From a virus: a DNA stretch of 31,647 nucleotides. The position numbers were made by a program, and so were the translations under genes. Each line of letters starts with the position of its first letter. The stretch's first letter is position 1. Of the stretch, positions 8,501 through 31,374 are shown piece by piece. The DNA lies in the IMG/VR virus record IMGVR_UViG_3300022602_000289, positions 1 through 31,647 of that record; one strand, written 5' to 3'. A model generated the notes under the pieces. It did not search any database. It worked only from the letters and a program-made list of their open reading frames with translations, and was not told the origin of the DNA.

Positions 8501-9253
8501 TCTACAATATATTATTTTTACGATCCGTCGGTTAATGTTATACAAACCTGGTCAGATGTTGAACAGGCCTTTATATTAAACACACAATATTTTGCCTATA
8601 CAGGCCGTAGTGGTTTAAAGTTTCATTATCTACATAATAGTGGTAGAGATCGTAGAATAGATCCTAGCAAAACTAATCTAATAGACATTTACCTATTGAC
8701 AACTTCTTATGATACTGAATATAGAGCATGGTTAGCCGCAGGGACAGGAGTAGAACCACTACCTCCCACAAGCAGTGAGTTAGCCGACCAATACCAATCA
8801 GTGTTAGATCCTATTAAAAGCATAAGTGATGAACTGGTATTTCAACCCGCTGTATATAAAGTTTTATTTGGATCACAAGCCGCTCCTGCACTACAGGCAA
8901 CATTTAAGGCTGTACAAAATCCAAATATTTTTAATAGTACAAACAGTTTAAAGACAAGAATATTAACAGCCATTGAAAACTTTTTTGCTTTAGAAAACTG
9001 GAACTTTGGAGACACATTTAACTTTAGTGAATTAGTAACTTATGTTATGAATGTTATGACTCCTGATATTACTAACTTTGTCATAGTTCCTGTTTCAAGC
9101 GGAGCATTTGGTAGTCTATTTGAAATAACAAGTCAAAGTAACGAAATCTTTATAAATGGGGCCACAGTGGATAACATTGAGATTATAGATGCTATAACAG
9201 CATCCCAACTACAGGCAAGCGGTTCTGTTGTAACTAGCACAACGAGAGGTTAA
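5534..9253 (+). CDS. 6: Baseplate wedge subunit gp6 (enlarged)
   Basis: A 1239-residue protein, nearly twice the 660 aa of T4 gp6. The N-terminus is diagnostic: TTEDWKKIYQ at 11-20, AEFQSYDFETLRR at 25-37, a YPEDFNDYIDSSEY run near 47-60, FRVDLNARENFLE at 77-89 and RRDSILRLAKLIGYN near 92-106. The C-terminus is equally typical, with NFFALENWNFGDTFNFSEL around 1149-1167 and EIFINGATVDNIEIID around 1204-1219. gp6 dimers form the inner ring of the baseplate and join wedges through their C-terminal parts. The extra length lies in the middle and includes DHDENGQIDDPD at 923-934, an EF-hand-like calcium-binding loop. The start at 5534 has almost no Shine-Dalgarno but follows the candidate late promoter closely. 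The next gene starts 5 nt after the stop. Confidence 0.93.
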   Translation: MIPSTTNQYLTTEDWKKIYQSYPNAEFQSYDFETLRRVMISYLQENYPEDFNDYIDSSEYLALVDLIAFMGQNLSFRVDLNARENFLETAQRRDSILRLAKLIGYNPSRNVPANGFLKIVSVSTSDIVLDSNGVNLANRSIGWNDPTNANWYDQFVSILNSTMPSGFIFGRPYDEATINGIDTQQYRINSSNTDVSVFSFNSNVNGNTMAFEIVSSLFAGQNYVYEEPPEPGTQFSFLYKNDNQGNSSANTGFFVHFKQGTLSSTNFSVTNPTPDELISINASGTNQSDIWLWQLNLNGNYQTLWTQVPNLVGNNVIYNSIANQIKTVYSVLTRDQDQFDLSFADGSFGQLPQGNFNLFYRQSNGLTYTIRPDQLSNITVNIPYTNKNGQSNSLKIVLSLQETVSNSQATESNASIQLKAPQSYYVQNRMITAEDYNIAPLTAGTDIVKIHSVNRTASGISRYFELSDVSGEYSSTNIFATDGIIYKKRTEQNFNFTFVNQNEITGVIDNQLGPIISSPEVFNFYLDLYPRVSAINLFAVWTQNTKSTNQSTGYFSILGNPVSVGSYSGTELQYCSPNALIKFVAPTGSYFTPNDLLTTTPDETTKNYIWAKVISITGDGSNGGQGALSNGNGPILISKQIPSGSIIEEIIPAFESILPIAIQSEMVDIITATRNMGLGFDSTTREWYIIEDSNLDLINDFGLSFQKDTSNIGKDNGWIISLQWNGINYQVRYRTLEYVFESERQTAFFVDNTVKNYDFVADTVIKDQISVLAINQSITPTTVTINTSTPLTLISTTTVQSSLVGSSAIYLNRTWVNSSQLGSVKYYAVHPAILGGSSLVTGFSTSGTVYLQSAISNVAGLPSGDTITFIPTTVNLVSTASITPAEVNQYISLSTDYQWEINSAVVEPDGFVDPKKVLISFFDHDENGQIDDPDAFNNIVVPYDVSAQTGYLHNFVYFKYLADGTSYQLADPSLFTAYPTQNDVAMPSTSTIYYFYDPSVNVIQTWSDVEQAFILNTQYFAYTGRSGLKFHYLHNSGRDRRIDPSKTNLIDIYLLTTSYDTEYRAWLAAGTGVEPLPPTSSELADQYQSVLDPIKSISDELVFQPAVYKVLFGSQAAPALQATFKAVQNPNIFNSTNSLKTRILTAIENFFALENWNFGDTFNFSELVTYVMNVMTPDITNFVIVPVSSGAFGSLFEITSQSNEIFINGATVDNIEIIDAITASQLQASGSVVTSTTRG
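8300..8335 (+). other. EF-hand-like calcium loop in gp6
   Basis: These codons (gp6 residues 923-934) encode DHDENGQIDDPD, matching the 12-position loop D-x-D-x-N-G-x-I-D-x-x-D at every ligand position except that position 12 is Asp rather than the usual Glu. Such loops also occur in dockerin-type and structural calcium sites outside paired EF-hands. The flanking sequence is not obviously helical, so a single structural calcium site is likelier than a regulatory EF-hand. Confidence 0.55.
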
Positions 9254-9258: not shown

Positions 9259-12200
9259 ATGGCAAGACAATCGGTTAACTTACTACCTACCTACTACCAA
9301 ACAGATAAAAATAGTAAATTTCTATCTAGCACATTAGATCAGCTTATACAACCGCCTAACATAGAACGATTAAACGGATTTGTTGGTAGTAAGTTAAGTC
9401 CTAACTATAATCCATCAACAGACAATTATATAAGTGATCCGCAGCCTTTAAGAAACAACTATCAACTATTGCCAGCCCTGGTAATAAAAAATAATGATGG
9501 TTCGCCTATTAAAGCCTTCGGATATGACGACCTTATCAATCAACTAAGTTTTTACGGTAGTGATACTGGTAATCTTGATAGAATATTCAGGCCTGATTTT
9601 TATAGTTATGATCCAAAAATAGATTGGGATAAGTTTGTTAACTATGATCAATATTATTGGTTACCGACAGGTCCTCAGCCTATTCTTGTAACAGGAATAC
9701 AAAGAGAAGTAACTAGTACATATACAGTCACTGACAGTTCTGATAATAACTTTTTTGTTTTTACTCCCGACGGATTAACTCCTGATCCTTTACTTACATT
9801 GTACAGGGGAGTAACTTATGTTTTTAATATAACTAGCAAATATCATTTATATATTAAAACATCTCAAGTTCCTGGTCCTAATGATCTTTATAGCGTTGAT
9901 ATACAAAATAATGGTATCAACAAAGGTCAAATAATAATCAGTGTTACAGATACTACTCCTGATTTATTATATTATGATTCAGACGACGGTAGGGTCGCTG
10001 GTGGACAGATAGTAATTAAACAGGCTATTGAAAATAGTTCTATAAATGTAGACGATGAAATAGTAGGAAAAGCAAACTATGTAACCTATAATGGAATACA
10101 GTTTATTAATGGAATGGTAGTACGTTTTGGGGGAGATGTTATTCCTAAAACTTATGCTAATAATACCTACATTGTTGAAGGCGTCGGCGATAGTATTACA
10201 TTGGTAAACTTTGCTAATCTAAAAACTCCAGAGAATACAGCCAGTCAGTATGATGACGGATTTGATGATAAACCATTTGATGAATATCCCTTTGATGATT
10301 TTGAAACACTTCCTTTAGTTCCTGAATATATTACCATCAATCGTGCCAGCAGAGATTTAAATCCCTGGACTAGATATAATAGATGGTTTCATAGAAATGT
10401 TATAGAAGCTGCCGCAACTGCTAATGGTTCAGTTTTTGTATTACCTAATAGCAGTGTAGCATCTCGACCTATTATTGAATTTAAACCTAATATTAAGTTA
10501 TTCAACTTTGGTACCGTTGGCGTAGCACCTGTTGATTACATTGATACAGTAACACATGACGCTTTTAACAGTGTAGAAAAAAGTTCAGGATATTGGATAG
10601 ACGGTAACGAGTTACAGGAAGGCGATAGAATTATTTTTAACGCCGACACAGATCCGTTAACCAGAGGAAAAATATTCCGTGTACATTTTGTTAGTATAAA
10701 AGATCTATCTCACGATCCTTTTCAATCAGCCAACATGGTTATTAGTCTTATACCTACAGACGACCACGAGCCTGTTACGGGGTCTGTTCTTGTTGTTAAA
10801 CAAGGCGCATCGTATGCTGGAACTAGTTGGCATCTTACAGTGCAGAATGGACTTGATACGTGGATAGAAGCACAGCAACACAACATAAGAAATCAAGCAC
10901 CTTATTTTGATGTAGTCGACGATAGCGGAAATAGTTTTAGTTCTTACAGTAGTAATTTTATAGGTACCAAAATATTTGGATATCAGATTGGTACAGGCAT
11001 TTCAGATTCTGTATTAGGCTTTCCATTAAACTATCAAAGTTCGGGTTTAGAAAGTACATATCTTTTTGAAAACTATTTCATGACAGATACTGTGATCAAT
11101 ATCGGTCCTAAATCTAACGCAACTATACCTGTTAGTTCTGGTTATCTGTTACACGACAATCAATATATAAATGTTTGGACACCGGCCGCCGAATATAAAC
11201 TAGCAGTGCAACAGTTTCAGGTAATACACGATCAAACATCTGCTATTAATATAACTGTGTTTGATAATCCAGGGTATCTAACTGATCTAAATGCTACAGT
11301 ATTTGTTAACGATAAAAAATATCTCAGTACAGAATTTTCTATTACTACTTCAACAACAGGCACGGCAGTTGTTAACTTTACGTCTCCATTGACTGCGTCT
11401 GTTACTGGACATAGAGTTTTATTTAATTTCTATACAACTGCTGTACCAAATAGTACAGGTATCTACGAAACACCCATAAACCTTTCCAATAATCCTTTAA
11501 ACGGTCCTATCAGTCAGTTTACATTAAGTGAAGTTATAGATCACGTTAGGGACATGACAAATAGAGATCCTGCGTTTGTAGGATCTTTTCCTGGTGCTAG
11601 TAACTTAGGAATACTGCCCAATATAAGTCACTACGGTTCTAGATTTATCAGTAACAAAAATAGTTTTTCTTTTGCTCAATATTTTATCAGCGATCAAGAA
11701 CACAGTTTAGTAAACTCAATAAGGTTAGCAGGCGACGACTATAATCAGTTTAAATTAAACTTTATTAAAACTATTTCTCAATATCCTCTTGATGGATACA
11801 CGCCCGCAGATGCGGTTGATTATGTTTTAACAACATTAAACGAAAACAAAAATACTTCTTCTCCTTATCTGTATAGTGATATGGTTCCTTACGGAACAGA
11901 TAAGAAGGTAAGAACTTACAAAGTTACAGATAGTAGAAATGTTTCTTATGCTATTACTAATGTATTTGATAAGACAGTATTATCTAATCAAGCAATTATC
12001 GTTTATCTAAATGAAACTCAATTAGTTTATGGAACAGATTATACATTTGACAGTATCGATCCTGCTGTTAATATTTCTACTCCATTAAATCCTTATGATG
12101 TTATTGTTATAAATGAATACATTAATACAGACGGTTGTTATGTAGCACCTACTCCTACTAAGTTAGGAATGTATCCTAGTTTTACTCCAATGTTATATGC

Positions 12201-15200
12201 TGACCACAGTTATATTAAAGGCCCGACAAATGTAATACAATGTCATGATGGTAGCATAATAGTAGCATTTGATGACTACAGAGATAACATTATATTAGAA
12301 CTAGAAACAAGGATTTATAATAATTTAAAAACTAGTTATGATCCTAACTTGTTTGATATTAACTCTATATTGCCTGGTGTATTTAGAAACAATGAATACA
12401 GTTATAGCGAAGTTTATAAATTAATACAAGATCTATTTGTTAAATGGTCAGTTACATATAATGTTACCTATGACAAAAATCTAACGTATAATATAGACGA
12501 ACATAAAACTTACAATTATAAATCTGCTACTGATTATATCTTTGGTGGAAATTTTGTGGGTAGCTGGCGTGCTATTTACAAATATTATTTTGATACAGAT
12601 CGTCCTGATTTATGTCCTTGGGAAATGTTAGGATTCTATATTAAACCAGATTGGTGGGACGAGTATTATGGTCCATATCCGTATACTGCAGGTAATGCTC
12701 GTCTATGGGCTGATTTAGAAGCAGGTTATATAGCTCAAGGCACTAGACAGGGATTTGATACATTATATGCTCGCCCCGGTCTATCAAAGATAATACCCGT
12801 TGATGACAGCGGAAACCTATATGATATTAGAGAATGGGCTGGTCTAGCACAAAATGATAATATCCCTCAGCCTGGCCAAAACTGGGCGTTTGGTGATTGG
12901 GGACCTGCTGAAAACGCTTGGCGCAGAAGTAGTAACTGGCCATTTGCTGTTCAAATATTATTAGCATTATCAAAACCATTAGACTATGCTAACAAAATGT
13001 TTGATACTAGTAGAATGACATTAAACAAAGCAGGCCAGTATACATTTAGTGCCGCTAATGAATTTATAAGTCCTAATATAGTTAGTATACACAGCGATGT
13101 AGTTAATAATCAAGTAGTTCGAGCCGCAGGATACGGGGTATATGTTGTAGAGATAGGAAAGAAACGTAGAAATGATTATGTATCCTATTTGAAAGATCAA
13201 CTAGCTAACGGTAATTTTAATCTGTTCCTTAAGATGGGAGGTTTTGTAAGCCAGAACCAATTATTAGTAACAGTTGATGCTTACAATCTAGCCACACAAG
13301 AACCGACTCCGTTTCTACCTAATGAAAACTATAAAGTATTTTTTAATACAAGTAATCCTGTTTTCTCAATAGGAATATCAGGTGTTATAATAATTAAATC
13401 TGAAGGAACATATCTTATAAGAGGATATGATAAAAAAGATTTATATTTTACAATCTTTAATCCTATTCATCAGCTTACTGATGTTAGTTTAACAGTTGGT
13501 GGAAAACCAGAATCCTATCTAACATGGACTTCTGGACAATCATATCAATCTGGACAAATAGTATTCTATCAAAGTGCATACTATAGAGTAACTACTAATC
13601 ACGTTGCTGGTACTACATTTAACATAAAATATTATCAACAACTATCAAGTTTACCTGTTATTGATGGAATATCAGTAACTAAGGCCAGCAAGTTTGAAAC
13701 TACCGAAACTGTAATAGAATACGGTACAACTATGAATTCCATTCAAGAAGTCTACGATTTCTTAAGCGGTTACGGGCACTGGTTAGAAAGTCAAGGATTT
13801 GTGTTTAACGAATACAGTGATCAGTTTAATCAAAATATTAACTGGGATTTTAGTGCTAGCGAGTTTATATATTGGACAGCACAAAACTGGTCTAATAACA
13901 GTGTCATTACATTAAGTCCATTTGCTGATGTTTTAAAATTTAAATATCAAGAAGGTGTTGTAGATAATGTTCTAGATAGTTTTTATGAATATGCTCTTTA
14001 TCAAGCAGACGGAACTCCTTTCCCTGCACAGAACTTTAATATAACTAGATCCTCTGGCATTATAGAAATTAATTCACAAGCAGTACCACAAGGAATATTT
14101 TATGCTAGATTAAATCTAGTACAAAAAGAACATGCAATAATATTTGATAATAGTACTGTATTTGGCGATATTATCTATGATGAAGAATCAGGATATAGAC
14201 AGTTACGAATGAACATAGTGGGATTTAGAACAGCAGACTGGAATGGTGATTTCTTTAGTCCTGGGTTTATCTATGATAACGCATCTATAAGCCAATGGAC
14301 TCCATATGCTAACTACATGCCTGCTGATGTTGTTCAGTATGTAGGAAAATATTATTCGGCTATTAATAAAATAACAGGAACAGAAACATTTAATTTCAGT
14401 CAATGGTATCTGTTACCTGCGGCACCTACTGCTCAATTATTACCTAACTTTGATTATAAGATAAGTCAGTTTGAAGATTTTTACAGTCTAGATACTGATA
14501 ACTTTGATGCTAGCCAACAAAAGATGTCACAACATCTAACCGGTTATAGTCCAAGACCCTACATGGATAATATATTTGCCGATGCAACAGCACAATATAA
14601 GTTTTATCAAGGATATATTAAAGAAAAAGGTACATTAAACTCTATTATTAAACTAGAAAAATCTTCTACTGCTAATATGCTGGGCACTATATCTATTAAT
14701 GAAGAATGGGCATTTAGAGCAGGTGCATACGGAAGTTATTCTAGTTATCAAGAAATAGAGTTACCTTTAAGGGAAGGAGACTTTGTTGAAAATAATCAAG
14801 CCATACAGTTTGTTGATTCTAAACCAGTTAATCCTTTTGATGTTGTTAGTTATATAACCCCAACAGATTTATTAATTACTCCTTCCAACTATCATTCAAA
14901 TTCTACTTTTATAGTTTCAAGCTCAACATACAAAATTAATAATCTAGTATATCCTACTGCAGGTTATGTACGTCTCGACGATGCTACATATACCTTTACT
15001 ACAACAAACGCTATTATACAATCAACAAATAATAGCAAGTGGAATGATGGAGATATATTCTGGGTAGGATTTGATAATAATACAGGCTGGGATGTATTTA
15101 GATATACTCACAAGACTGCTTATATAACCACAGCCACTGCCTCTGGACCAAATATTATATTTTACACGAATGCTAATCATGGATTACAAATCGGCGAGAT

Positions 15201-18200
15201 AATATCAATCAATAATTTTTACAGTACATTAAATGGAGTTTATGTAGTAACAGCCGTGCCACTATCGACACAGTTTGTAGTAGAATCTACTAATTTTGTT
15301 CCACAAAACTTTAAGGGTGAGGGATTAATATTTGCCTTTGCTTCTGTTAGATTTAGCAATGTTGATGATATCGCAGGATTTCCATATGCCGCCAAAATAC
15401 AATCCGGAGAAATGTTCTGGGTAGATGATAACGGTACTGGAAAGTGGGCAGTTTATCGTAAGACAAATAATTATTCGTCTGAAATAATAAACGCACCTAT
15501 CTATCAACCAACAGCAGAGTTTGGATATAATATAGTTAAACAGGCCACTAGTTCAACTGTTGTTATATCGGCTGCACATTATTATTATAGTCAAGAACAT
15601 TATGGAAGAATATATGTATTCAACGCCGACCCTGCAACAGGATCATTAACTAAGATATTCGATTACGGATTAGATACAACTGATCAGCGACTAATAACTG
15701 ATCAAACACCATTTGGTGATGCTTTATTCTATGATGAAGAAGATGATGTAATATTTGCGGCAGCATCGTATGCTACTACATCTACTACCGATGCCTATAG
15801 ATCTTCGGGAATAGTAAAAATTTCAGGAATCATAAGAAGCGAATTAGGTAAAGAAGTAACATATGCTAACATGTTCGGTCATGCACAGGGTGAACGATTT
15901 GGATCTAGCATTTATGTACAAAGAACAAAAACTAATAAACGTGTTTTAATAGGTGGACCTGGAGAAGTATTAAGTACAGCGACTAAGGGTATTGTCTATG
16001 TTTATGATATGTTTATTTCTCCAAATGGATATACATATCACAGTCAAACTGGAACTGATGTTATAAACGGGGGTTCAGGGGCATCTTTTGATGTTACCCC
16101 TGTCAATGAAAAATATGTAGTTTCGTTAACTACTTCAACAGGTACAGCATATGCTGTCAATAGTGAAATAGTCATACGTGGCGATAGTCTGGGCGGTTTA
16201 TACCCAGACAATAATTTAAATATTAAAGTTAGAGCAGTTAATAGTAACGGGTCGATTGTCGGCATAAGCACTACGTCAACTAATGGTATCGCTAGATACA
16301 AATCATTTACTATAGCATCAACAGCATCTATAACCGCACCTGCTGTGGCTACAACTGGTTCGGAGTTTGGTTATACTATAGTAGGAAATCAAGATGGCAG
16401 TCTAATAGCTATATCAGCTCCTGGCCTACATCATTCGACTGGCGGTGTATTTGTATACACATACGACAATACCACTAACCAGTATGTCGAATTAGAACAA
16501 CTTGATCCTACAATACCAATAGTACCTGGAAATAGATTTGGTACTAAAATGGTTATGAATGATCTAGGAACACATTTAGTAGTTGCCACTAGTTTAATAT
16601 CTGATGGTAGAACAGAACCAGGTAAACTAGTAGTGTATGAATGGACCGGCACACAGTTTAGTTACATACAGACTATTGACAATCCTGCTACATCTCCAAT
16701 AAACTTTGGATCAGCATTAAGTATAACACCTGCAGGAGATACTCTAGCGGTAACAGGTCAAGGATCTCCGTATTTTAATGATATAATCTTTGATGGTGGC
16801 GCAACAACTTTTGATAATTTAAGCTGTCTATTCGGAGAAACAGTTAGAGAATCTGGTAGTGCTTATATCTATCAAAGATATAATAAGAAATTTATATTTG
16901 CTCAAGAACTAATAAATGGATCTATCGATGCAGGCGGAAATTATGGATTTAATATTGCTCTCGATAATAACTTTGCCTATGTCGGTAACCCAGACTTTAC
17001 ATCTGGAAAATCTGGATCAGTGTATCTATGGAACAAAGTAGATAGATCAAATATAGGATTAGGTCAATATAGAATACAAGACGATTTGATTGATTTATCC
17101 TTGATTGATAATGCTTATACATTAGACACACTAAAAGATACAGTATTAGATTATCTTGACATAGTTGATCCTGTTAAAGATAGATTGCCCGGTCTTGCTG
17201 AACAAGAGTTAACTTATAAAACATCATTTGATCCTGCTATATATTCCATAGGTGGAGACACAGTTGTTGTAGATACTACAAAGTCTTGGGAAGAAGAACA
17301 TGTAGGCGAACTATGGTGGGATATTTCTGCTGTAAAATATGTTTGGTATGAACAGGGTGATATAGCATACAGAAAAAATGCATGGGGTAAAATATTTCCC
17401 GGATCAAGTATTGATGTATATGAATGGGTTGAGTCAACATATCTACCTAGTAAATGGGCATCTTTAGCAGATACTCCTACTGGGCTGACACTGAATATTA
17501 GCGGACAGCCAAAAAATAATGACGACAGCATATATTCATCTAGACAAATTTTTGATAAAAGTACAGGACAGTTTACAACTTTATACTATTACTGGGTTAA
17601 AAATAAAACCATAATACCTAATGGTCGAGCCAGAAGATTGAGTTCTTATGATGTAGCTTCTTTAATAAATGATCCTAGAGGATATGGATTAAAATATATT
17701 TCTCTTATTTCATCCAATGGACTTGCAATAAACAACTATAAAAATAAATTAATATCTAACAGGATTGATCTTAATATTGCCTACAATGTTGTAGATACAA
17801 CAGTTAATAAACATACTGAGTGGATTTTGTTACAAGAAGGTGATGAAAATAATCAACCAACTCCGGCATTAAATCAAAAGTTATTTGATAGTTTATTAGG
17901 TCATGATGTATTGGGTAATAAAGTTCCTGATCCAAGCCTTAGTTTTAGACAGGCATACGGAATACAAATACGTCCTAGACAAAGCATGTTTATTAATAGA
18001 ATAGAAGCATTAAGAAACTTAATCAACTATGCTAATCTAACAATGCAGGATATGAGGATAACAGGATTTATTAGTTTTAAAAATCTTAACCTCAAAGATG
18101 AGATTCCTAATATATTGTTAGGCGAATATGATCAAGTAGTTGAAGATTCTATAGCACTAGATATTATAGGAACAACAAATTTTAAAACTGCTAGATTATC

Positions 18201-21200
18201 TTCTGAAGTATTAAACGGTCGTTTAATAAGAATAAAAGTAGAAGACCCAGGCTATGGATATTTAATAGCACCTACAGTTACTGTAGGAGACGGAACTTCG
18301 ATTGCTAAAATACAAACAATATTAGATGATCAAGGCAGGGTTATTGATGCTGTCATAATAAATGCTGGATCTGGTTTTGTATCTGCCCCTGACTTATTAG
18401 TCAGACCATATACAGTGATATTAAAAGTCGACCCTATATATAATACTAGATGGAGCAAATATGTCTGGACAGGCATTAACTGGTTGCGTGCATATACTCA
18501 GACGTATGATACAACACAGTATTGGAAATATGTAGATTGGCAAGACGCTACGTATAATCTGTATAAGTCTATTTCTTATGCTGTAGATTCTGTTTACGAA
18601 GCACAAGAATTATCTTTAAATGTAGGCGACTATATTAAAGTACAAAATGGTGGTGACGGTAACTATGTGATATTAAGAAAAACCGATGGAACAGTTGGAA
18701 CATTTGATGACAACTTTGACATTGTTTACAGTCAAAATGGCACTATACAAATATTAGACAAAGTATGGAATGTTAGTGCAAGTGATTTTGGATTTGATGA
18801 AATAACACCATTTGATCAATCTTTATATGATCAAACTCCTGATACAGAGTTAATGAATATTTTAACAGCTTTACATAAAGATGTGTTTGCTGGTGTTAAT
18901 AGGATCAACTGGAATACATTCTTTTTTACCGCTGTAAAATATGCTTTAATAGAACAACCATTCTTGGATTGGGCATTTAAAACAAGTTTTATAGATGTTA
19001 AAAATCTAGCTGGTGTATTAGATCAACGTGCGACTTATAGATATCAAGATCCAACATGGTATAATGATTATATAAATGAAATAAAACCCTATCATACACA
19101 GGTAAGAAACTATCAAGTTAACTATCAGATAGGAGAATCTAATAGTGCTCCATGGGAACCAACTGCTACATATACAACAGACTTTGACTTACCTTCGTAT
19201 TATGATGAAGTTACAGGCAAGTTTACCGTAGTTACAACATCAAGCAGTTTAATAAATCAGTATCCATATGCTGGATGGTACAATAATTATTCACTTAGCG
19301 TTGGCAGTATTATATTAGAAAACGGGGGATCAGGATATCGTGTAGTTCCTAAAGTTGATATAATACCAGCACTTGGTGATACAGGTCATGGCGCTACTGC
19401 CCAAGCCTATATTGCCAACGGTTCGATTAGTAAAATACTAGTTACAAATCCTGGAAAGGGTTATACAATACAACCTACTGTTATGATTAGCGGTGGTGGT
19501 AATCTAGCATTAACGACTGCTACAGCATATGCGTTACTTGAAAACAATCTTGTTAGAACAAACTTTGTGCGAATGAAGTTTGACAGGATCAGTGTAAGTA
19601 CACCAATAAACAGAGATATAGGTGTTTCTAGTATAGTAACTGCTACTATTATATCCGATGGATCTCATAACTCTTTTGAACTTCCCTGGGCCGCAAGTCC
19701 ATTAAAGTTAGATACAACAGTTACATTAGATAACATACTAGTATTAAAATCTACGTTTACAGTCACTAACTATACAAAAGCGTTTACTACTGGTAATAAT
19801 TTAACCAGTTATGAAAAACAATATAGTAATATCGATCTAAACTTTGTTCCAAAGAAAGGACAAGTTCTTGTCGTAACATTTAAAAAGAATATAGAATTAT
19901 ACAACGCATCAGAGCGTATACAAGATTATTACAATCCAAATGTAAATATGCCTGGCAAACAACTAAATCAGGTCATGCAGGGTGCAGAATATGCTGGAAT
20001 AAATGTAGAAGGATTGCCGTTTGATTATGATCGAGGTTTTGGCGATATAGGATTTGGCTCATCCGACTGGGGTGATGTAATTCCTGATGTCTACTACTAC
20101 ACAGTGACTACATCGACTCATTCTCAAGCATTTACTGTACCTTCAGTTAGTACAGGTACTTTACTAAATGTATATGTTGAATCTTGGGGCCCATTGAACT
20201 CAAATACAACAACAAACATTTTGCTTAACTCTATAAGAGTTGATGGAACAAATACATATGGAGTTACAGTTAATACTGGAACTGGTGGTCCTATAGTAGT
20301 TCAAATTGCGTCTAATGCTTTTACTTCAACTAGCGTCTATAGTAAAGTTGTATTTAGAACACCTGAACAGAACTCGTCTATATTATCAACTAACATAGAT
20401 ACTGTTATTGACGGTGGCAAGTTATCTACATTCTCCGATAACACATTTAATACAGCGTTAGGATATCGTCCTAGTGATATTATTATTGATGGAGATGCTT
20501 TTATTACTCCTAAAACAAGTTATGGTCCAGAAGAATTGTTATCAGGACAGGTCCAAGACACGTTGGCCATTAACGTTTTTACAGAAGTTCCTTCAGGTTC
20601 GCCGTTAATTGTTACACAAAATGCCTACATTACTGCTACTGGTGTAACAACTATAGTTCCATTAAAACTCCTTCCTGTATCTACAGGAAGTATAATGGTA
20701 TCGTTTAACCAGAAATATCTAGCTTACGGTATAGACTACACTGTTGATTATTCCTTTAATAGATTGATCTTAAATGCTCAATCACAAACTGGTGTGTTAG
20801 GTATAACTGTAGTAGAAGTGGGAGGAATAGATTTACTATCTAGTTATTCTCAAACTACATTTGCCACAGACACAGCTACCATTAGTAGTAGAAATCCTTT
20901 TAAAAATATAGGTAGTATCTATGTAACAGTAAACGGAGTAACTGCGGTAGAAAACGGGCCCGGATTAGGATACACATTTACTGCTAATAAGAAAAATATA
21001 GGAGTTGTTAATCTATATGGAATGGGGATCGGAGTACATGCTATACAATGTTGGTTCTTTAAACCTACATATAAAGCCTATAGCGAAGTTAAAGAACAAC
21101 TAATATCTATTACTAATACTACATCGACATTTAATCTAATACAGGTACCCGGAAATCAAGGACCTTATGAAGCACAGGCAATAGTTACAGTAAATGGATT

Positions 21201-22554
21201 AAGACTAGCTCCTCCGCATACTACCTACTATGAAGTATCGGGTAATCAAACAGAGTTTATAATACATCCTTTAGAATCATATCCTCCTGGAATCTTTAGT
21301 CTATCAGCAATGAAAGTATTCCGAAATGGTGTACAGTTGAATAATGTATTAGATTTTGAACTAGTCAGAGAAACAAATACAATAGTATTTGAGACCAACG
21401 CTCTTAATGAGGGTGATGTACTGGCCATTGAAACGTTCAATGATGCCGCATATGATATAGATGAAACGACAGGTATATTAACTTTATTAAATCCTGTTAA
21501 CTCCGGTGATCTAGTTAGCATAACAACATTTACCAACGGAGATGCTAGCCAAATACGTACAGAACAGTTTGATTCTAATCTATCAAACCAATACACAATG
21601 TCAAGAGCTGTGCTAGATGATAGTTATGTTTGGGTATCAGTAGACGGAAAACCATTGGTGGCTAACATTGATTATGTTGTTTTAGATGACCATATCACTG
21701 TTGAAATATCTAATAACTATTCTTATAGTCTAGGATCTACGGTTCTTATAACTAGTATTAGTACTCAGGTTATTAATACCAGTATAGGTTATAGACAGTT
21801 TAAAGATATTTTAGGTAGAACACAATTTAAGAGAATCAGCGAATCAAACTCGACAGTTCTTACCAGAGATTTATTATTAACTGATACAGAAATCTATGTT
21901 AAAGATGCTAGTGTATTAACAATACCTAGTCCGTCTACAAATATTCCTGGAGTTATTTTTATTAACTCTGAAAGAATAGAATATATGTCCATAAATGGTA
22001 ATATATTAAGTATAATAAAAAGATCAACATTAGGAACAGGTGCTGGCCTAGACTATCCTGCAAATACAATAGTCGTAGATGCCGGATTTATACAATCAGT
22101 TCCGGACAGAAGTTTTACATTTATACAAAATCTTATAACTACTAATACGTCGACTTATACAATATCTACATCAACTACAAAACAAACAGGTGACGGAATA
22201 ACATTAACTGCTAACATATCTGGTAAAGACCAAATTGAAGTATGGTATGCAGGCCGTCAGTTGTCTAAAACAGAACAAATATCTCATAATAATAATATAG
22301 GATTTGACAGCGGAGAAAATAATAGCGATACAGTAATACCTCCAGAGTTTACTGTAGATGTAGCGTCTCAGACTTTAACTTTAATGCCCATCGATGGGTT
22401 AAATCAAGGAATGCGACTAACAATAATACAAAGAAAAGATGGTGTTTGGCAATACCCTGGACAGAGTTTACTAGATGGTACTACAGCACAATCAAACTTC
22501 TTACTACAGAGGCAGTCTGGAATACCGGATAAATATCAATATGAATCAAACTGA
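9259..22554 (+). CDS. Giant baseplate structural protein in the gp7 position (4431 aa)
   Basis: One uninterrupted 13.3-kb frame, 5 nt after gp6 and preceded by GAGAGG. T4 gene 7 (1032 aa), the wedge initiator partner of gp6, holds this position, so a gp7-like role is inferred from synteny; no gp7 identity is visible. Many blocks match the giant virion proteins of large myoviruses: ITINRASRDLNPWTRYNRW near 357-375, WWDEYYGPYPY near 1130, FGDWGPAENAWRRSSNWPF from 1211, HVGELWWD and YEWVES at about 2681-2726, EIKPYHTQVRNY near 3274-3285, and MPGKQLNQVMQGAEYAG near 3564. Between them are seven FG-GAP-like repeats (2088-2590), two G-x-GY/PxV beta repeats (2995-3050, 3345-3415) and hairpin repeats with V-NG...DY patterns (about 3800-4175). 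An Asp/Phe-rich loop sits at 332-349. No membrane segments or enzymatic motifs were recognised. It ends in TGA, overlapped by the next start. Confidence 0.85.
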   Translation: MARQSVNLLPTYYQTDKNSKFLSSTLDQLIQPPNIERLNGFVGSKLSPNYNPSTDNYISDPQPLRNNYQLLPALVIKNNDGSPIKAFGYDDLINQLSFYGSDTGNLDRIFRPDFYSYDPKIDWDKFVNYDQYYWLPTGPQPILVTGIQREVTSTYTVTDSSDNNFFVFTPDGLTPDPLLTLYRGVTYVFNITSKYHLYIKTSQVPGPNDLYSVDIQNNGINKGQIIISVTDTTPDLLYYDSDDGRVAGGQIVIKQAIENSSINVDDEIVGKANYVTYNGIQFINGMVVRFGGDVIPKTYANNTYIVEGVGDSITLVNFANLKTPENTASQYDDGFDDKPFDEYPFDDFETLPLVPEYITINRASRDLNPWTRYNRWFHRNVIEAAATANGSVFVLPNSSVASRPIIEFKPNIKLFNFGTVGVAPVDYIDTVTHDAFNSVEKSSGYWIDGNELQEGDRIIFNADTDPLTRGKIFRVHFVSIKDLSHDPFQSANMVISLIPTDDHEPVTGSVLVVKQGASYAGTSWHLTVQNGLDTWIEAQQHNIRNQAPYFDVVDDSGNSFSSYSSNFIGTKIFGYQIGTGISDSVLGFPLNYQSSGLESTYLFENYFMTDTVINIGPKSNATIPVSSGYLLHDNQYINVWTPAAEYKLAVQQFQVIHDQTSAINITVFDNPGYLTDLNATVFVNDKKYLSTEFSITTSTTGTAVVNFTSPLTASVTGHRVLFNFYTTAVPNSTGIYETPINLSNNPLNGPISQFTLSEVIDHVRDMTNRDPAFVGSFPGASNLGILPNISHYGSRFISNKNSFSFAQYFISDQEHSLVNSIRLAGDDYNQFKLNFIKTISQYPLDGYTPADAVDYVLTTLNENKNTSSPYLYSDMVPYGTDKKVRTYKVTDSRNVSYAITNVFDKTVLSNQAIIVYLNETQLVYGTDYTFDSIDPAVNISTPLNPYDVIVINEYINTDGCYVAPTPTKLGMYPSFTPMLYADHSYIKGPTNVIQCHDGSIIVAFDDYRDNIILELETRIYNNLKTSYDPNLFDINSILPGVFRNNEYSYSEVYKLIQDLFVKWSVTYNVTYDKNLTYNIDEHKTYNYKSATDYIFGGNFVGSWRAIYKYYFDTDRPDLCPWEMLGFYIKPDWWDEYYGPYPYTAGNARLWADLEAGYIAQGTRQGFDTLYARPGLSKIIPVDDSGNLYDIREWAGLAQNDNIPQPGQNWAFGDWGPAENAWRRSSNWPFAVQILLALSKPLDYANKMFDTSRMTLNKAGQYTFSAANEFISPNIVSIHSDVVNNQVVRAAGYGVYVVEIGKKRRNDYVSYLKDQLANGNFNLFLKMGGFVSQNQLLVTVDAYNLATQEPTPFLPNENYKVFFNTSNPVFSIGISGVIIIKSEGTYLIRGYDKKDLYFTIFNPIHQLTDVSLTVGGKPESYLTWTSGQSYQSGQIVFYQSAYYRVTTNHVAGTTFNIKYYQQLSSLPVIDGISVTKASKFETTETVIEYGTTMNSIQEVYDFLSGYGHWLESQGFVFNEYSDQFNQNINWDFSASEFIYWTAQNWSNNSVITLSPFADVLKFKYQEGVVDNVLDSFYEYALYQADGTPFPAQNFNITRSSGIIEINSQAVPQGIFYARLNLVQKEHAIIFDNSTVFGDIIYDEESGYRQLRMNIVGFRTADWNGDFFSPGFIYDNASISQWTPYANYMPADVVQYVGKYYSAINKITGTETFNFSQWYLLPAAPTAQLLPNFDYKISQFEDFYSLDTDNFDASQQKMSQHLTGYSPRPYMDNIFADATAQYKFYQGYIKEKGTLNSIIKLEKSSTANMLGTISINEEWAFRAGAYGSYSSYQEIELPLREGDFVENNQAIQFVDSKPVNPFDVVSYITPTDLLITPSNYHSNSTFIVSSSTYKINNLVYPTAGYVRLDDATYTFTTTNAIIQSTNNSKWNDGDIFWVGFDNNTGWDVFRYTHKTAYITTATASGPNIIFYTNANHGLQIGEIISINNFYSTLNGVYVVTAVPLSTQFVVESTNFVPQNFKGEGLIFAFASVRFSNVDDIAGFPYAAKIQSGEMFWVDDNGTGKWAVYRKTNNYSSEIINAPIYQPTAEFGYNIVKQATSSTVVISAAHYYYSQEHYGRIYVFNADPATGSLTKIFDYGLDTTDQRLITDQTPFGDALFYDEEDDVIFAAASYATTSTTDAYRSSGIVKISGIIRSELGKEVTYANMFGHAQGERFGSSIYVQRTKTNKRVLIGGPGEVLSTATKGIVYVYDMFISPNGYTYHSQTGTDVINGGSGASFDVTPVNEKYVVSLTTSTGTAYAVNSEIVIRGDSLGGLYPDNNLNIKVRAVNSNGSIVGISTTSTNGIARYKSFTIASTASITAPAVATTGSEFGYTIVGNQDGSLIAISAPGLHHSTGGVFVYTYDNTTNQYVELEQLDPTIPIVPGNRFGTKMVMNDLGTHLVVATSLISDGRTEPGKLVVYEWTGTQFSYIQTIDNPATSPINFGSALSITPAGDTLAVTGQGSPYFNDIIFDGGATTFDNLSCLFGETVRESGSAYIYQRYNKKFIFAQELINGSIDAGGNYGFNIALDNNFAYVGNPDFTSGKSGSVYLWNKVDRSNIGLGQYRIQDDLIDLSLIDNAYTLDTLKDTVLDYLDIVDPVKDRLPGLAEQELTYKTSFDPAIYSIGGDTVVVDTTKSWEEEHVGELWWDISAVKYVWYEQGDIAYRKNAWGKIFPGSSIDVYEWVESTYLPSKWASLADTPTGLTLNISGQPKNNDDSIYSSRQIFDKSTGQFTTLYYYWVKNKTIIPNGRARRLSSYDVASLINDPRGYGLKYISLISSNGLAINNYKNKLISNRIDLNIAYNVVDTTVNKHTEWILLQEGDENNQPTPALNQKLFDSLLGHDVLGNKVPDPSLSFRQAYGIQIRPRQSMFINRIEALRNLINYANLTMQDMRITGFISFKNLNLKDEIPNILLGEYDQVVEDSIALDIIGTTNFKTARLSSEVLNGRLIRIKVEDPGYGYLIAPTVTVGDGTSIAKIQTILDDQGRVIDAVIINAGSGFVSAPDLLVRPYTVILKVDPIYNTRWSKYVWTGINWLRAYTQTYDTTQYWKYVDWQDATYNLYKSISYAVDSVYEAQELSLNVGDYIKVQNGGDGNYVILRKTDGTVGTFDDNFDIVYSQNGTIQILDKVWNVSASDFGFDEITPFDQSLYDQTPDTELMNILTALHKDVFAGVNRINWNTFFFTAVKYALIEQPFLDWAFKTSFIDVKNLAGVLDQRATYRYQDPTWYNDYINEIKPYHTQVRNYQVNYQIGESNSAPWEPTATYTTDFDLPSYYDEVTGKFTVVTTSSSLINQYPYAGWYNNYSLSVGSIILENGGSGYRVVPKVDIIPALGDTGHGATAQAYIANGSISKILVTNPGKGYTIQPTVMISGGGNLALTTATAYALLENNLVRTNFVRMKFDRISVSTPINRDIGVSSIVTATIISDGSHNSFELPWAASPLKLDTTVTLDNILVLKSTFTVTNYTKAFTTGNNLTSYEKQYSNIDLNFVPKKGQVLVVTFKKNIELYNASERIQDYYNPNVNMPGKQLNQVMQGAEYAGINVEGLPFDYDRGFGDIGFGSSDWGDVIPDVYYYTVTTSTHSQAFTVPSVSTGTLLNVYVESWGPLNSNTTTNILLNSIRVDGTNTYGVTVNTGTGGPIVVQIASNAFTSTSVYSKVVFRTPEQNSSILSTNIDTVIDGGKLSTFSDNTFNTALGYRPSDIIIDGDAFITPKTSYGPEELLSGQVQDTLAINVFTEVPSGSPLIVTQNAYITATGVTTIVPLKLLPVSTGSIMVSFNQKYLAYGIDYTVDYSFNRLILNAQSQTGVLGITVVEVGGIDLLSSYSQTTFATDTATISSRNPFKNIGSIYVTVNGVTAVENGPGLGYTFTANKKNIGVVNLYGMGIGVHAIQCWFFKPTYKAYSEVKEQLISITNTTSTFNLIQVPGNQGPYEAQAIVTVNGLRLAPPHTTYYEVSGNQTEFIIHPLESYPPGIFSLSAMKVFRNGVQLNNVLDFELVRETNTIVFETNALNEGDVLAIETFNDAAYDIDETTGILTLLNPVNSGDLVSITTFTNGDASQIRTEQFDSNLSNQYTMSRAVLDDSYVWVSVDGKPLVANIDYVVLDDHITVEISNNYSYSLGSTVLITSISTQVINTSIGYRQFKDILGRTQFKRISESNSTVLTRDLLLTDTEIYVKDASVLTIPSPSTNIPGVIFINSERIEYMSINGNILSIIKRSTLGTGAGLDYPANTIVVDAGFIQSVPDRSFTFIQNLITTNTSTYTISTSTTKQTGDGITLTANISGKDQIEVWYAGRQLSKTEQISHNNNIGFDSGENNSDTVIPPEFTVDVASQTLTLMPIDGLNQGMRLTIIQRKDGVWQYPGQSLLDGTTAQSNFLLQRQSGIPDKYQYESN
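15520..17040 (+). repeat. Seven FG-GAP-like repeats (predicted beta-propeller) in the giant protein
   Basis: Within the giant protein, seven segments each begin with a Tyr/Phe-Gly pair, run into a beta strand of the type 'vviSAP' and end in a 'G.vyvy' strand. The repeat starts are F2088, F2152, F2214, F2370, F2427, F2483 and Y2562. Examples are FGYTIVGNQDGSLIAISAPG and FGTKMVMNDLGTHLVVATS, with closing strands such as GRIYVF, GIVYVYD, GVFVYTYD and SGSVYLWN. This is the arrangement of integrin-alpha-like FG-GAP propellers, and seven is the usual blade number. A non-propeller insert of about 95 residues separates repeats 3 and 4. The calcium-binding DxDxDG loops of classical FG-GAP blades are not evident. 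Confidence 0.65.
18241..18411 (+). repeat. Beta repeat copy 1 (GYGY...PTV...GSGF) in the giant protein
   Basis: Residues about 2995-3051 read as paired half-units: DPGYGYLIAPTVTVGDG, a short strand and turn, then IINAGSGFVSAPDLLV. The pattern is N/D-P/A-G-x-G-[YF]-x(3)-P-x-[VL]-x-[VI]. A second copy lies at 19297-19500. This motif is frequent in giant marine phage tail proteins and probably forms stacked beta hairpins. Confidence 0.6.
19297..19500 (+). repeat. Beta repeat copy 2 (GSGYRVVPKV...GKGYTIQPTV) in the giant protein
   Basis: Residues about 3347-3414 contain ENGGSGYRVVPKVDIIPA, then a GHGATAQAYIANGSISKILV connector, then TNPGKGYTIQPTVMISGGG. It matches copy 1 at 18241-18411 in motif order and spacing. 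The two copies are diverged in nucleotide sequence, so they are protein-level rather than recombinogenic DNA repeats. Confidence 0.6.
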
Positions 22555-23194
22555 GACTAATAAAATGCAAGAAATATCACGCAAACCCGACGAATATGGC
22601 AATATTGCCATAAGAGGACACATCAAAATCTCTGATGTAACTGAAAAAACTCCTGTTGTTTTAATAGATAAGTTTAATGCTATACATTATGAAAACTTTA
22701 GTATGGCACTAGCTCAAAGTATTGGAGATCAAACACAGGGTTGGATTTCAGAAATGGCATTTGGTAATGGGGGAAGCAATATAGACCCTACAGGAATTAT
22801 TACCTATCTTACACCTAACACCGTTGGAGTAAATGCAGGATTATATAATCAAACTTATTATAAAAATGTCGACGGTAATAGTATTTTAAATAAAGATCCT
22901 AGCAGGAATTTTATGGAGGTTAGACATATAACAGGTGCGTATTATACAGATGTTTTAGTTACCTGTTTATTAGATTTTGGAGAACCTAGTGATCAAAGTG
23001 CTTTTGATAATAGCACACAGGCGCAAGGAATGTATGTTTTTGATGAATTAGGATTAAGAGCCTACAGTCCTAATGGACCAGGAACTGGTCCTTTACTGAC
23101 ACATGTTATTTTTCATCCTGTACAAAAATCTCTTAACAGGCTTATACAAATTGATTATACAGTAAGGATCCAAAGCCTATCAACTGGAATGTAA
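22541..23194 (+). CDS. Small virion structural protein downstream of the giant gene
   Basis: I do not recognise a named family. The frame is open back to an ATG at 22475, but that would lie 80 nt inside the giant gene. The preferred start is ATG 22541 (217 aa, overlap 14 nt, GGAT about 13 nt upstream). ATG 22565, starting MQEISRKPDEYG, is a good alternative (209 aa, no overlap). The protein is soluble and beta-rich. It includes a GHIKISDVTEKTPVVLIDKF stretch, an EMAFGNGGSNIDPTGIITYL region and a C-terminal THVIFHPVQKSLNR followed by an IDYTVRI strand. Similar 'virion structural' proteins occur between wedge genes and fibre genes in marine T4-like phages, so a baseplate-periphery or fibre-attachment role is plausible. 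T4 gene 8 holds this position, but I see no gp8 likeness. It ends 2 nt before the first fibre gene. Confidence 0.72.
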   Translation: MNQTETNKMQEISRKPDEYGNIAIRGHIKISDVTEKTPVVLIDKFNAIHYENFSMALAQSIGDQTQGWISEMAFGNGGSNIDPTGIITYLTPNTVGVNAGLYNQTYYKNVDGNSILNKDPSRNFMEVRHITGAYYTDVLVTCLLDFGEPSDQSAFDNSTQAQGMYVFDELGLRAYSPNGPGTGPLLTHVIFHPVQKSLNRLIQIDYTVRIQSLSTGM

Positions 23195-23196: not shown

Positions 23197-25095
23197 ATGG
23201 GAAATAACTATACAGCATATCACGCCGATCAATCAATACCTTCTATATCTATTCCCGAACAACAATCGGTTACAGTAAGTGAAGGTGAAAATGGTAGTGC
23301 CCTAACATTAGTTGGAAGAAACTATCCTAGTTATGCTCAGGCTTTCAATCAAAACTTTTTATCTTTATTAGAAAACTTTGCTTCTGGAACAGCGCCGTTG
23401 TTGGCTCCTACTGGACAGTTATGGTATGATACAACTAACAGAGTTTTAAAAGTCAACGATCCTGGCTACGGTTGGATCCCTGTTAACGGAGTGTGGAGCG
23501 ATAATGGAGATCCTACTTCCTTAAATCTACAGACAAACATCGGTGATATATATGTCGATAAGGCAACTGGCATTGTATACATTTATACAGGCACATGGGT
23601 ATCTTTAAATTCAAATACAAATACAGGTGCAAAGTCTGGTCCGTACCCTACTGAAATCTTAGACAAATCAGGTAACACTCATAATGTTATAATAATGTAT
23701 CTAGATGATATAGCTTTAGAAATAATAGCTAAAGAATCATTTACGCCTGCTCAGGTTATAGATGGATTTGTAAATTTAATTCCGGGTATTAACATAAGCA
23801 CGAAGGCATTTAACGGAGTAACTCCTTTAATAAACGGAGTATCATCTGTTGCTCTATCACTAAAACAAATTAACAACAACGGCACTTCTCAAGTAGTTGC
23901 TGGTAATTATTTTATGAGAAATAATACTGCACAGGAGGGAATGAATGGGCAGTTGATTATTAATAATGATGGTGGTATTAAAATAGGAGCAACAACTTCT
24001 ACGTTCTTATTACAAAAAAATGGAGCAAAGGCAGTATTTCAAAATACATTAGCTGGTGGAAGTTTTAACTTTTTAACTTATAATAATGGGATTCCTAATT
24101 ATATTTTAACTCTAGACGGAAGTACAAATAGAGTAGGAGTAGGTGCTAACTTAAATAATTCTTATCCTGCCGTTGAGCTAGATGTATTTGGCAGTTTAAG
24201 GGCGTCTAACAATCTTTATGTAAACACCTCGACTAATAGTGTCATAAGTCCAGCAACCGCAAATATTAATGGTAATGTTTTTATAACAAGTAACCTGCAA
24301 ATAGGATACCCTGTAACTCCAAATCCTGCTAGCGGCCAGTCGTTGATAGTTAACAATCAATCAACATTTATCAGTACAGCTACTTTTTCTAGTGGAATAC
24401 AAACTTCAAATACGATTACAAACTCGCAGGCTGTTTTCAATGACATTGGTTCGAGAACTGTGCCCTTTAATGCTGTATATGCTAGAATATTTGGATCTTC
24501 TAATCTGTCATCCCAGTTTTATGGAAACTTTAACGGACCGGCACAGACTTTAAGTAATAAAAAGACTATTGGAATGTCTGGAGTTATTAATTCTGATTCC
24601 AAAATATTTGATGGAAATAGTAATGTAACATTAGATACCACAGTTAGTCCCAGTATTATAACTAGTTCTACAAACTATCCAGGATTAGCAGGAGCAGAAC
24701 TAACTGCAGACCCAACTGATCAAATATTAGTTTATTCTAGCGTTCAGTTAGCTAACGGAAACGGAAATGGTCTTTTTAATATTACAAAAGAAGCATTTTT
24801 AGCAGATTTATATACAAGTATATTAGTTACAGGTATGATAATACCCTATGCTGGAACTGTTGCGCCAAATGGTTGGTTATTCTGCGATGGAACTCCACAG
24901 GACAGATATGGTCCAATCACTAGCAACTTATACAGCGTTATTGGTACACAATACGGAGCAAGAAATGCTAATGAATTTTTATTACCTAACTTAAACGGAC
25001 CAAGTAGTAACGGTCCGTTCACATTGTATACAAATTCTAGTACATACCTAACATCGCAAGGTCCTGTGGGCGTACGATATATTATAAGGCTATAA
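23197..25095 (+). CDS. Tail fibre/collar protein A (shared N-terminal module, tail-collar C-terminus)
   Basis: A 632-residue fibre-type protein, first of four paralogues in a row. The N-terminus has the shared module: SALTLVGRNYPSYAQAFNQN, LLENFASG and GQLWYDTTNRVLKV within about residues 34-90, followed by a second weaker unit with IGDIYVDKATGIVYIY. The middle is a beta-rich Asn/Thr/Ser shaft with an NRVGVG...AVELDVFGSLRASNNLYV unit of the kind seen in phage fibre repeats. Residues about 547-600 form a phage tail-collar domain: GMIIPYAGTVAPNGWLFCDG followed by a FLLPNLNG close. Collar domains in T4 gp12-type short fibres lie next to the receptor-binding tip. It lies 2 nt after the preceding stop, with only a weak GGA ribosome site, and its own stop is 1 nt before the next gene. 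Receptor binding is inferred. Confidence 0.83.
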   Translation: MGNNYTAYHADQSIPSISIPEQQSVTVSEGENGSALTLVGRNYPSYAQAFNQNFLSLLENFASGTAPLLAPTGQLWYDTTNRVLKVNDPGYGWIPVNGVWSDNGDPTSLNLQTNIGDIYVDKATGIVYIYTGTWVSLNSNTNTGAKSGPYPTEILDKSGNTHNVIIMYLDDIALEIIAKESFTPAQVIDGFVNLIPGINISTKAFNGVTPLINGVSSVALSLKQINNNGTSQVVAGNYFMRNNTAQEGMNGQLIINNDGGIKIGATTSTFLLQKNGAKAVFQNTLAGGSFNFLTYNNGIPNYILTLDGSTNRVGVGANLNNSYPAVELDVFGSLRASNNLYVNTSTNSVISPATANINGNVFITSNLQIGYPVTPNPASGQSLIVNNQSTFISTATFSSGIQTSNTITNSQAVFNDIGSRTVPFNAVYARIFGSSNLSSQFYGNFNGPAQTLSNKKTIGMSGVINSDSKIFDGNSNVTLDTTVSPSIITSSTNYPGLAGAELTADPTDQILVYSSVQLANGNGNGLFNITKEAFLADLYTSILVTGMIIPYAGTVAPNGWLFCDGTPQDRYGPITSNLYSVIGTQYGARNANEFLLPNLNGPSSNGPFTLYTNSSTYLTSQGPVGVRYIIRL

Positions 25096-25096
25096 G

Positions 25097-26926: not shown

Positions 26927-26936
26927 GGAATATTGA

Positions 26937-28475
26937 ATGACATATACAATTAAAAATTACGATCAAAGCACGCTATTGACTATACCAGACGGTACTACTG
27001 ATCACAGTACTAGCCTTTCACTGGTAGGTAAAAATGTCAGTAACTTTGGTGTTTTACAAAATGAAAATTTTTTATATCTGTTACAGAATTTTGCCAATAG
27101 TTCAGCTCCAGCTAACCCTGTAGCAGGCCAACTGTGGTATGATACAAGCAACATACAACTAAAGTTTTTTGATAGTGCCAACTGGCAAATATTACCGGTA
27201 TTAAGTCCTAATAATACATCTGGAAGTAGTGGATCTTTATATATTGATCCTACAACTAATCAGTTACTTATAAACACAGCATTTTCTGGAACAGCTACTT
27301 ACGCTGTTATTGGTCCAGAGGCTGTAGCAGGTTTTGGAACTACAAGATTATTATCAACATCTTTAACTGCTGTATCCGATCCTAGAACACGTTCTGTGAT
27401 TGAAGTTATAGTTGACGGAGAGATAGTGGCAGTTATTAGCACAAGCAGTTTCTTTGTAGATTCTAGTAACAGCATTCCTGGTATATCTCAAATCAACAGA
27501 GGAATAACATTTAAAAATTATTCTACAAACGATTTTACACTTTATGGAAGAAGTCAACTGAGTAATCTAGCAACTACAGCAACTAATATTGTTGGAGGAT
27601 CTACTGGGGCTTTAATTGTTCAATCCGGACCTGGTCTTAGTACAACATTGGCTGTAGGTGCTAATGGTAATATATTATTATCTAACGGGACTACCCCTAC
27701 ATGGGCATCTACTACAACACTGTTAGTTAATCATGCCATTAAGACAGATAATATAACAGGTGGCGGACAAGGTTCTATTCCTTATCAAGCGAGTAATGGT
27801 TCAACAACTTATGTAGATTTAGGTAATGTAGGATACATGTTAACAGCTGGCGCATCAAGACCTGTTTGGTCTGATCCTAGTCAACTATCAGTATCTCTAG
27901 CAACAACTGCCACATACGCACAATCATTTAATACAAGTACATTAGTAACACATGCTACATTGGCTGATACAGCTACTAATGCTAATAGTGCTAATAATGC
28001 TTCTAATGTTCCATGGACAGGGGTACAAAATCCTCCTGCATTTTTAACAACATCAACGGCACTACCTGGCGGCGCTATTATTATGTGGTATGGATCACAA
28101 GTGTCTATTCCTCCAGGATGGCATTTATGTGATGGATCAAATGGGACGCCTGATTTAAGAGATAAATTTGTTGTCGGCGCCGGAAATAGTTATTCTGAAA
28201 ATGCTACAGGTGGTTCTGCTAATACTGTACTGCCAGCACATACACATGCATCGGCGGTAGTAGATTATGGTCACTCACATACTTTACCTGGAGGACCATT
28301 ATATGGACAAGGTACAGGTGGAGGTAGCCAGGCTTGGACTGAAGGTGCTCCAGCATCAACTGCTATTGCTAATACTAACATTACTGTTACTGTAGCATCT
28401 GCGGGAACAGGTACAGGAGTAGGAACTAACCTGCCCCCTTACTATGCATTGTACTACATAATGAAAACTAGCTGA
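26937..28475 (+). CDS. Tail fibre protein C (shared N-terminal module, collar with HxH motifs)
   Basis: A 512-residue fibre-type protein with a good AAGGA site 8 nt before the ATG. The N-terminal module is TSLSLVGKNVSNFGVLQNEN, LLQNFAN and GQLWYDTSNIQLKFFD. The C-terminal 135 residues are a tail-collar domain: GGAIIMWYGSQVSIPPGWHL, then CDGSNGTPDLRDKFVVGAG. A glycine-rich segment follows with two His-x-His pairs, H435/H437 (HTH) and H446/H448 (HSH), and the protein closes with NLPPYYALYYIMKTS. In T4 gp12 and gp37, HxH pairs bind zinc or iron on the trimer axis near the receptor-binding tip, so a metal-stabilised trimeric tip is inferred. The order (collar, HxH, LPPYYALYYIMK) matches the receptor-binding end of T4 short-tail-fibre-like proteins. 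It is the shortest of the four paralogues and precedes a 31-nt gap with a candidate late promoter. Confidence 0.85.
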   Translation: MTYTIKNYDQSTLLTIPDGTTDHSTSLSLVGKNVSNFGVLQNENFLYLLQNFANSSAPANPVAGQLWYDTSNIQLKFFDSANWQILPVLSPNNTSGSSGSLYIDPTTNQLLINTAFSGTATYAVIGPEAVAGFGTTRLLSTSLTAVSDPRTRSVIEVIVDGEIVAVISTSSFFVDSSNSIPGISQINRGITFKNYSTNDFTLYGRSQLSNLATTATNIVGGSTGALIVQSGPGLSTTLAVGANGNILLSNGTTPTWASTTTLLVNHAIKTDNITGGGQGSIPYQASNGSTTYVDLGNVGYMLTAGASRPVWSDPSQLSVSLATTATYAQSFNTSTLVTHATLADTATNANSANNASNVPWTGVQNPPAFLTTSTALPGGAIIMWYGSQVSIPPGWHLCDGSNGTPDLRDKFVVGAGNSYSENATGGSANTVLPAHTHASAVVDYGHSHTLPGGPLYGQGTGGGSQAWTEGAPASTAIANTNITVTVASAGTGTGVGTNLPPYYALYYIMKTS

Positions 28476-28485: not shown

Positions 28486-28506
28486 TATTGAATTTGGAAA
28501 TTAATA

Positions 28507-31367: not shown

Positions 31368-31374
31368 TTCTTTA

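Follow-up and report, generated by a model that had tools for sequence, protein, structure and literature searches.

The window, which is the whole stretch of 31,647 nucleotides that was analysed, is a 31.6-kb virus record and it carries a run of tail and baseplate genes. Within this run, the gene for a protein with a gp25 domain and a gp6-like wedge gene are followed directly by a gene for a giant virion structural protein, and it is in a variable slot of this protein that the seven-bladed propeller described here is found (Table 1). The profile of phrog_10938 matched the giant protein with 1040 bits, and homologues of 3323-4555 aa were found in RaK2, 121Q, Munch, Kaldavass, PA5oct, Atu_ph07, Phosso, SCTP-2, and Vibrio 2.275.O. 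With its homologous core blocks and its position downstream of gp25-like and gp6-like genes the protein belongs to phrog_10938 and, judged by its sequence, is a virion protein of the RaK2/PA5oct/Atu_ph07-type jumbo myophage family. The PA5oct orthologue, gp355, is annotated as detected by mass spectrometry. In phage phAPEC6, gp245, a protein of 381.9 kDa that adjoins the wedge protein gp244, was found with 17 peptides in purified virions (PMC7247149), and by its size and position it is probably another orthologue. Because of the gene order and because these orthologues are found in virions, we place the giant protein in the baseplate region of the virion. The preliminary description called it a wedge protein. 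Its gene does follow directly on the gp25-like and gp6-like wedge genes, and it may or may not be a wedge subunit itself; homology to T4 gp6, gp7, gp8, or gp10 was undetectable (hhalign probabilities below 1%, where one side of the comparison was a single T4 sequence). Homology to T4 gp7 in particular was sought by profile comparison and none was found; the 'gp7' of cyanophage P-HM2 shares small repeat modules only.

Other genes in the window are of the kind expected around a tail. The hub-like protein encoded at 3036-5030 ends in a VanY (D-Ala-D-Ala carboxypeptidase) type domain with an E-value of 1.5e-4, just below the Pfam cut-off, and its counterparts in RaK2, 121Q, and PA5oct are annotated as lysozyme hub. 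The ORF listed at 22475-23194 shares 80 bases with the end of the giant gene, and its true start probably lies further downstream. The four consecutive genes at 23197-30483 appear to encode paralogous fibre/collar proteins, all with an LVGRNxxxYG...GQLWYDT-like module at the N-terminus; one of them ends in a Pfam tail collar domain. A thymidylate synthase-like gene on the minus strand (30480-31442, from a reading of the sequence only) abuts the end of the last fibre gene.

Table 1. Features of the baseplate gene run and parts of the predicted propeller (nucleotide positions in the window; residues of the giant protein)
Feature	Position	Strand	Residues	Basis or remark
gp25 domain protein	5045-5482			Pfam GPW_gp25
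gp6-like wedge gene	5534-9253			position and homologue annotation
giant virion structural protein, phrog_10938 family	9259-22554	+	4431 aa	directly 3' of gp6-like wedge gene; orthologues in virion proteomes
conserved core block upstream of slot	12136-14811	+	960-1851	
variable slot	14812-17076	+	1852-2606	propeller here; other or no domains in relatives
N-terminal closing strands	15448-15492	+	2064-2078	pLDDT 90-97; aligned to first residues of integrin alpha chains
blade 1	15520-15711	+	2088-2151	blade HMM and model
blade 2	15712-15897	+	2152-2213	family alignment and model; insertions up to ~570 aa in marine relatives
blade 3, strands 1-3	15898-16023	+	2214-2255	blade HMM and model
inserted module in strand 3-4 hairpin of blade 3	16024-16299	+	2256-2347	placement from model
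blade 3, strand 4 and linker	16300-16365	+	2348-2369	model
blade 4	16366-16536	+	2370-2426	blade HMM and model
blade 5	16537-16704	+	2427-2482	blade HMM and model
blade 6	16705-16941	+	2483-2561	blade HMM and model
FD..xTTFD loop of blade 6	16789-16815	+	2511-2519	alignment conservation
blade 7	16942-17076	+	2562-2606	blade HMM and model
conserved core block downstream of slot	17077-18063	+	2607-2935	

The proposal of a propeller began with seven Phe/Tyr-Gly starts, and these are present at all seven residues named, F2088 (nucleotide 15520), F2152, F2214, F2370, F2427, F2483, and Y2562. Residues 2050-2620 contain the pattern [FY]Gxx[ILVMA] 8 times as against a mean of 1.9 in shuffled sequences, and the fraction of shuffles reaching 8 was 0.0004. 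We trained a blade HMM on relatives only, omitting the window and its closest kin; it scored 75.6 bits on the giant protein and no higher than 9.0 bits on 476 shuffles; it gave 7 stretches above 3 bits in the giant protein compared to 0-1 in the shuffles. A chance origin of the F/YG starts is rejected on these shuffle tests. One of the 7 stretches is the N-terminal closing segment, and blade 2 (F2152), which is sub-threshold in the window alone, is backed by the family alignment and by four predicted strands. The seven repeats conform to the seven-repeat FG-GAP pattern (PF14312/PF01839), in which strand 1 holds the FG pair and the second strand is GAP-like, with the family consensus FG...GAP...GxVYVY. 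Of the 'SAP'-type strands that had been reported, literal SAP is found in blade 4 only. The other GAP-type prolines of the window are in GGP of blade 3 and GNP of blade 7, which makes three of the seven blades. The propeller is larger than the extent given earlier, 15520-17040, and runs from the closing strands at about nucleotide 15448 to 17076, that is to about residue 2606.

When the window protein was compared to Pfam on its own, FG-GAP_2 scored 10.4 bits (E-value 0.8) where the cut-off is 23, and this insignificant score is what speaks for the reading that there is no propeller and that the F/YG starts arose by chance or from unrelated beta modules. Among the relatives, 54 of 57 matched FG-GAP_2 at E-values of 0.01 or lower, the best being 1.6e-26, and homologous relatives reached up to 74 bits in the same slot. 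In addition, the family profile matched integrin alpha-4 in the PDB at 2.3e-17. Since the window is below the cut-off and the relatives match in the same slot, membership in the FG-GAP family comes via homology to them and not by direct score. The relatives were gathered through the conserved cores only; a search with the propeller alone gave no relatives, its tblastn matches being weak (best E-value 0.1), and the weak cyanophage matches were mostly to the inserted module.

AlphaFold2 predicted a closed propeller with confidence. Model 1 (residues 2076-2616, 57 sequences) had a pLDDT of 83.6 and a pTM of 0.82, and model 2, to which 37 N-terminal residues and more relatives were added, had a pLDDT of 86.7 and a pTM of 0.86. 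Low confidence was confined mainly to the inserted module (residues ~2260-2345). Comparison of model 2 with integrin alphaM by VIA gave a Z score of 38.5 and 2.8 Å over 366 residues. The matches of model 2 are complete integrin alpha heads including the closing strand, with model residue 32 (N2070) aligned to integrin residue 1, while the alignment of model 1 started at integrin residue 10. Foldseek superpositions of the model were looser (TM about 0.5-0.65, rmsd 8-9 Å). In integrins, the N-terminal segment closes the propeller ring. Because the N-terminal segment of the phage propeller aligns with it, the closed ring of seven four-stranded blades is well supported. The check that had been proposed, structure prediction, came out in favour of the earlier claim, and we regard it as well supported that the region is predicted to be a complete seven-bladed FG-GAP propeller with the topology of the integrin alpha head, its ring closed by the N-terminal strand.

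Among relatives with both conserved blocks, the length of the variable slot ranges from 213 to 1542 aa. When the blade profile was run on the slots of 146 distinct relatives, obtained from 216 loci, 133 scored at least 68 bits and 13 scored 2.4 bits or less with a clean gap in between; because the searches give the best 80 matches, this sampling leans to contigs near the window. With these slot scores added to the family matches in Pfam and the PDB, the blade HMM scores against shuffles, the AlphaFold2 models, and the VIA matches, the reading without a propeller is hardly credible and has in practice already been refuted by the model and the family profile.

The 13 relatives without a propeller are all nine cultivated phages that were examined and four SCTP-2-like contigs, and in a tree of 63 core sequences a fully supported branch separates them from the others. 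The tree, being unrooted, does not tell gain of the propeller from loss. The relatives that carry the propeller are all metagenomic. Their slots, all without FG-GAP blades, hold other material: about 213 aa in the RaK2-type, 326 aa in PA5oct, 514 aa in SCTP-2, and about 1530 aa of GYxxxP repeats in Atu_ph07 and Phosso. The slots of the four SCTP-2-like contigs (L233, L237, L238, and L240) are 675-861 aa long with GSGYSVGD-type repeats and also lack FG-GAP blades. A reading by eye of the SCTP-2 slot as a LamG/concanavalin-type lectin was dropped because Pfam gave nothing at an E-value of 0.01. A motif, GDxFWV....W.VyR, occurs twice before the propeller in the window, at ~15049-15108 (residues ~1931-1950) and ~15406-15462 (residues ~2050-2068), and RaK2-type slots have one similar copy. 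Since the motif is found twice here and once there, the propeller may have entered beside a duplicated element.

The preliminary description also proposed an insert between blades 3 and 4 that could be an exposed recognition loop. It is a true insertion, because several close relatives (L014, L092, and L099) have nothing between blade 3 and blade 4 and the module is absent from many relatives, but it is modelled inside blade 3 and not between finished blades. The strand that completes blade 3 (residues 2348-2359) follows the module in both models and therefore the module is placed in the 3-4 hairpin. The window and one relative (L011) have this module in common and another (L096) has an unrelated one. 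Parts of virion proteins of cyanophages are similar to the module (S-CAM1, E-value 3e-3; P-HM2 gp7, pairwise E-value 5e-4), and because it is also found, weakly, in such structural proteins, an exposed recognition loop is only one option for it.

Many relatives have an insertion in the 2-3 loop of blade 2, with a length of up to about 570 aa. Among 252 gaps of more than 40 aa, 74 were in 2-3 loops, 91 came after strand 3, and 87 were unassignable; none of the 252 could be assigned to a 1-2 loop, although some could hide among the 87. One end of a blade holds the FG-GAP elements, close to the loop that precedes strand 1 and to the 2-3 loop, and the opposite end holds the calcium loops, 1-2 and 3-4 (PMC3192720). 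Since the 2-3 loops and the 3-4 hairpin lie at opposite ends, the insertions use both blade ends. For this reason we gave up the idea that a single face of the disc carries all insertions; in the model, the window insert is in the hairpin between strands 3 and 4 of blade 3. CBM_5_12-like modules (chitin-binding type) are present in 18 of 57 relatives, and in the blade 2 loop they score above the Pfam cut-off in L125 and below it in L034. These modules may be structural because they are also found in the conserved core. Several contigs with slots of 1200-1500 aa, L153, L064, and L181 among them, have more than 500 aa inserted in blade 2; several of these insertions begin with a CBM_5_12-like module and the remainder has no identified fold.

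Apart from the FG pairs and the glycine that precedes strand 3, conservation within the propeller is highest in the FD..xTTFD loop of blade 6, where F2511, D2512, T2516, F2518, and D2519 are 90-99% conserved in 80 aligned sequences whose identity to the window is otherwise mostly 20-30%. This conservation is quoted from the alignment only, since a simple regular expression found the loop in just 37 of the 133 relatives. The loop is a candidate partner or ligand site. In one relative (L106) a similar motif was seen in blade 3. The range of the slot from 213 to 1542 aa and its unrelated contents would suit a slot that tolerates passengers, in which case the propeller and the other domains found there would serve as spacers or bulk and be selected for little except their length. 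Such a slot is improbable given that, at that low identity, conservation extends to all seven blades, to the closing strand, and to the TTFD loop. The mean identity over 71 pairs was 0.73 for the propeller compared to 0.81 and 0.76 for the flanks, and since this is only slightly below the flanks the propeller is not hypervariable.

What, then, is the role of the propeller? We propose, with slightly more confidence than doubt, that it contacts the host surface. Held in the variable slot of a giant protein that belongs to the tail-tip/baseplate region of a jumbo myophage, it would fold as a rigid disc projecting from the virion, the disc would contact a glycan or protein of the host surface, and the loops and inserted small domains would add or tune contacts, much like the heads of integrins, which bind ligands and contain an inserted I domain. 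Consistent with host contact, the slot is variable, the loops accept insertions, and some inserts are carbohydrate-module-like; the propeller is in 133 of 146 relatives while the flanking protein is common to all; the propeller diverges somewhat faster than the flanks; and orthologues of the giant protein are found in virions. Against this, its divergence is only modestly above that of the core where a main receptor-binding site is expected to be hypervariable, the near-fixed TTFD loop could dock another virion protein, and the virion proteomics come from relatives without a propeller. In a rival explanation, the propeller is an internal docking platform for virion proteins, namely, tail fibres, the collar-domain proteins encoded downstream, or neighbouring wedges, and makes no direct contact with the host. 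The retention of the propeller in all 133 relatives of one large group, a near-invariant FD..TTFD loop that resembles a fixed partner site, a divergence near that of the core, and fibre and collar genes directly downstream all fit docking. The propeller is nevertheless wholly absent in relatives with a similar gene order, and its loops accept whole extra domains that differ among relatives. We hold docking to be a serious but lesser possibility. More tentative still, and less likely than not, is the specific form of the host-contact proposal drawn by analogy, that the propeller would be an integrin-head-like adhesion module in the baseplate region whose exchangeable loop domains do the recognising, in parallel to the integrin I domain.

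Compared to known systems, the propeller has in common with the integrin alpha head (alphaM, alphaV, and alpha-4) seven four-stranded FG-GAP blades and a matching N-terminal segment, and both have whole domains inserted, the I domain of integrins being between propeller blades 2 and 3 (PMC10659397). The phage propeller differs in that it has about 15% identity to the integrin head, no DxDxDG calcium loops, the GAP proline in three of seven blades, and no beta subunit, and in that it is embedded in a 4431-aa virion protein. The strict integrin-type definition calls for the FG-GAP/Cage motif (FG ... P ... G) in all seven blades and for calcium loops (PMC3192720). In the window the proline of this motif is absent from blades 1, 2, 5, and 6, no strict DxDxDG was found in any slot, and no DxDxDG-like motif was found in the window slot. 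Judged from these motifs, the propeller is of the FG-GAP family via its relatives and is not a strict integrin-type domain. The giant proteins of RaK2, 121Q, Munch, PA5oct, Atu_ph07, and SCTP-2, all of phrog_10938, have homologous flanking cores at the same place after a gp6-like gene but their slots lack FG-GAP blades. T4 gp7 has the same relative gene position after gp6, but profile comparison found no homology to it and the giant protein is four times larger. FG-GAP propellers have already been annotated in viral proteins (BFVD), namely, in giant viruses, in cyanophage S-TIM5 (H6WG31), and in a 'hemagglutinin' of Atu_ph07 (A0A2L0UZX4). These FG-GAP_2 (PF14312) proteins have the same repeat family and predicted fold but are not known to be located in a giant-protein slot; in Atu_ph07 itself, the giant-protein slot is without a propeller. 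No description of an FG-GAP propeller in a phage baseplate was found in a literature search that covered mostly open papers and few subscription papers. What appears to be new is the placement of the propeller in a defined slot of a giant protein and its prevalence among uncultured jumbo phages, and studies of cultured phages could have missed it because all nine cultivated relatives examined lack it. A propeller fold best known from animal cell adhesion has long been kept by a large group of uncultured jumbo phages as part of a structural protein and, if it binds the host, it would be an adhesion module integrated in the baseplate and distinct from tail fibres.
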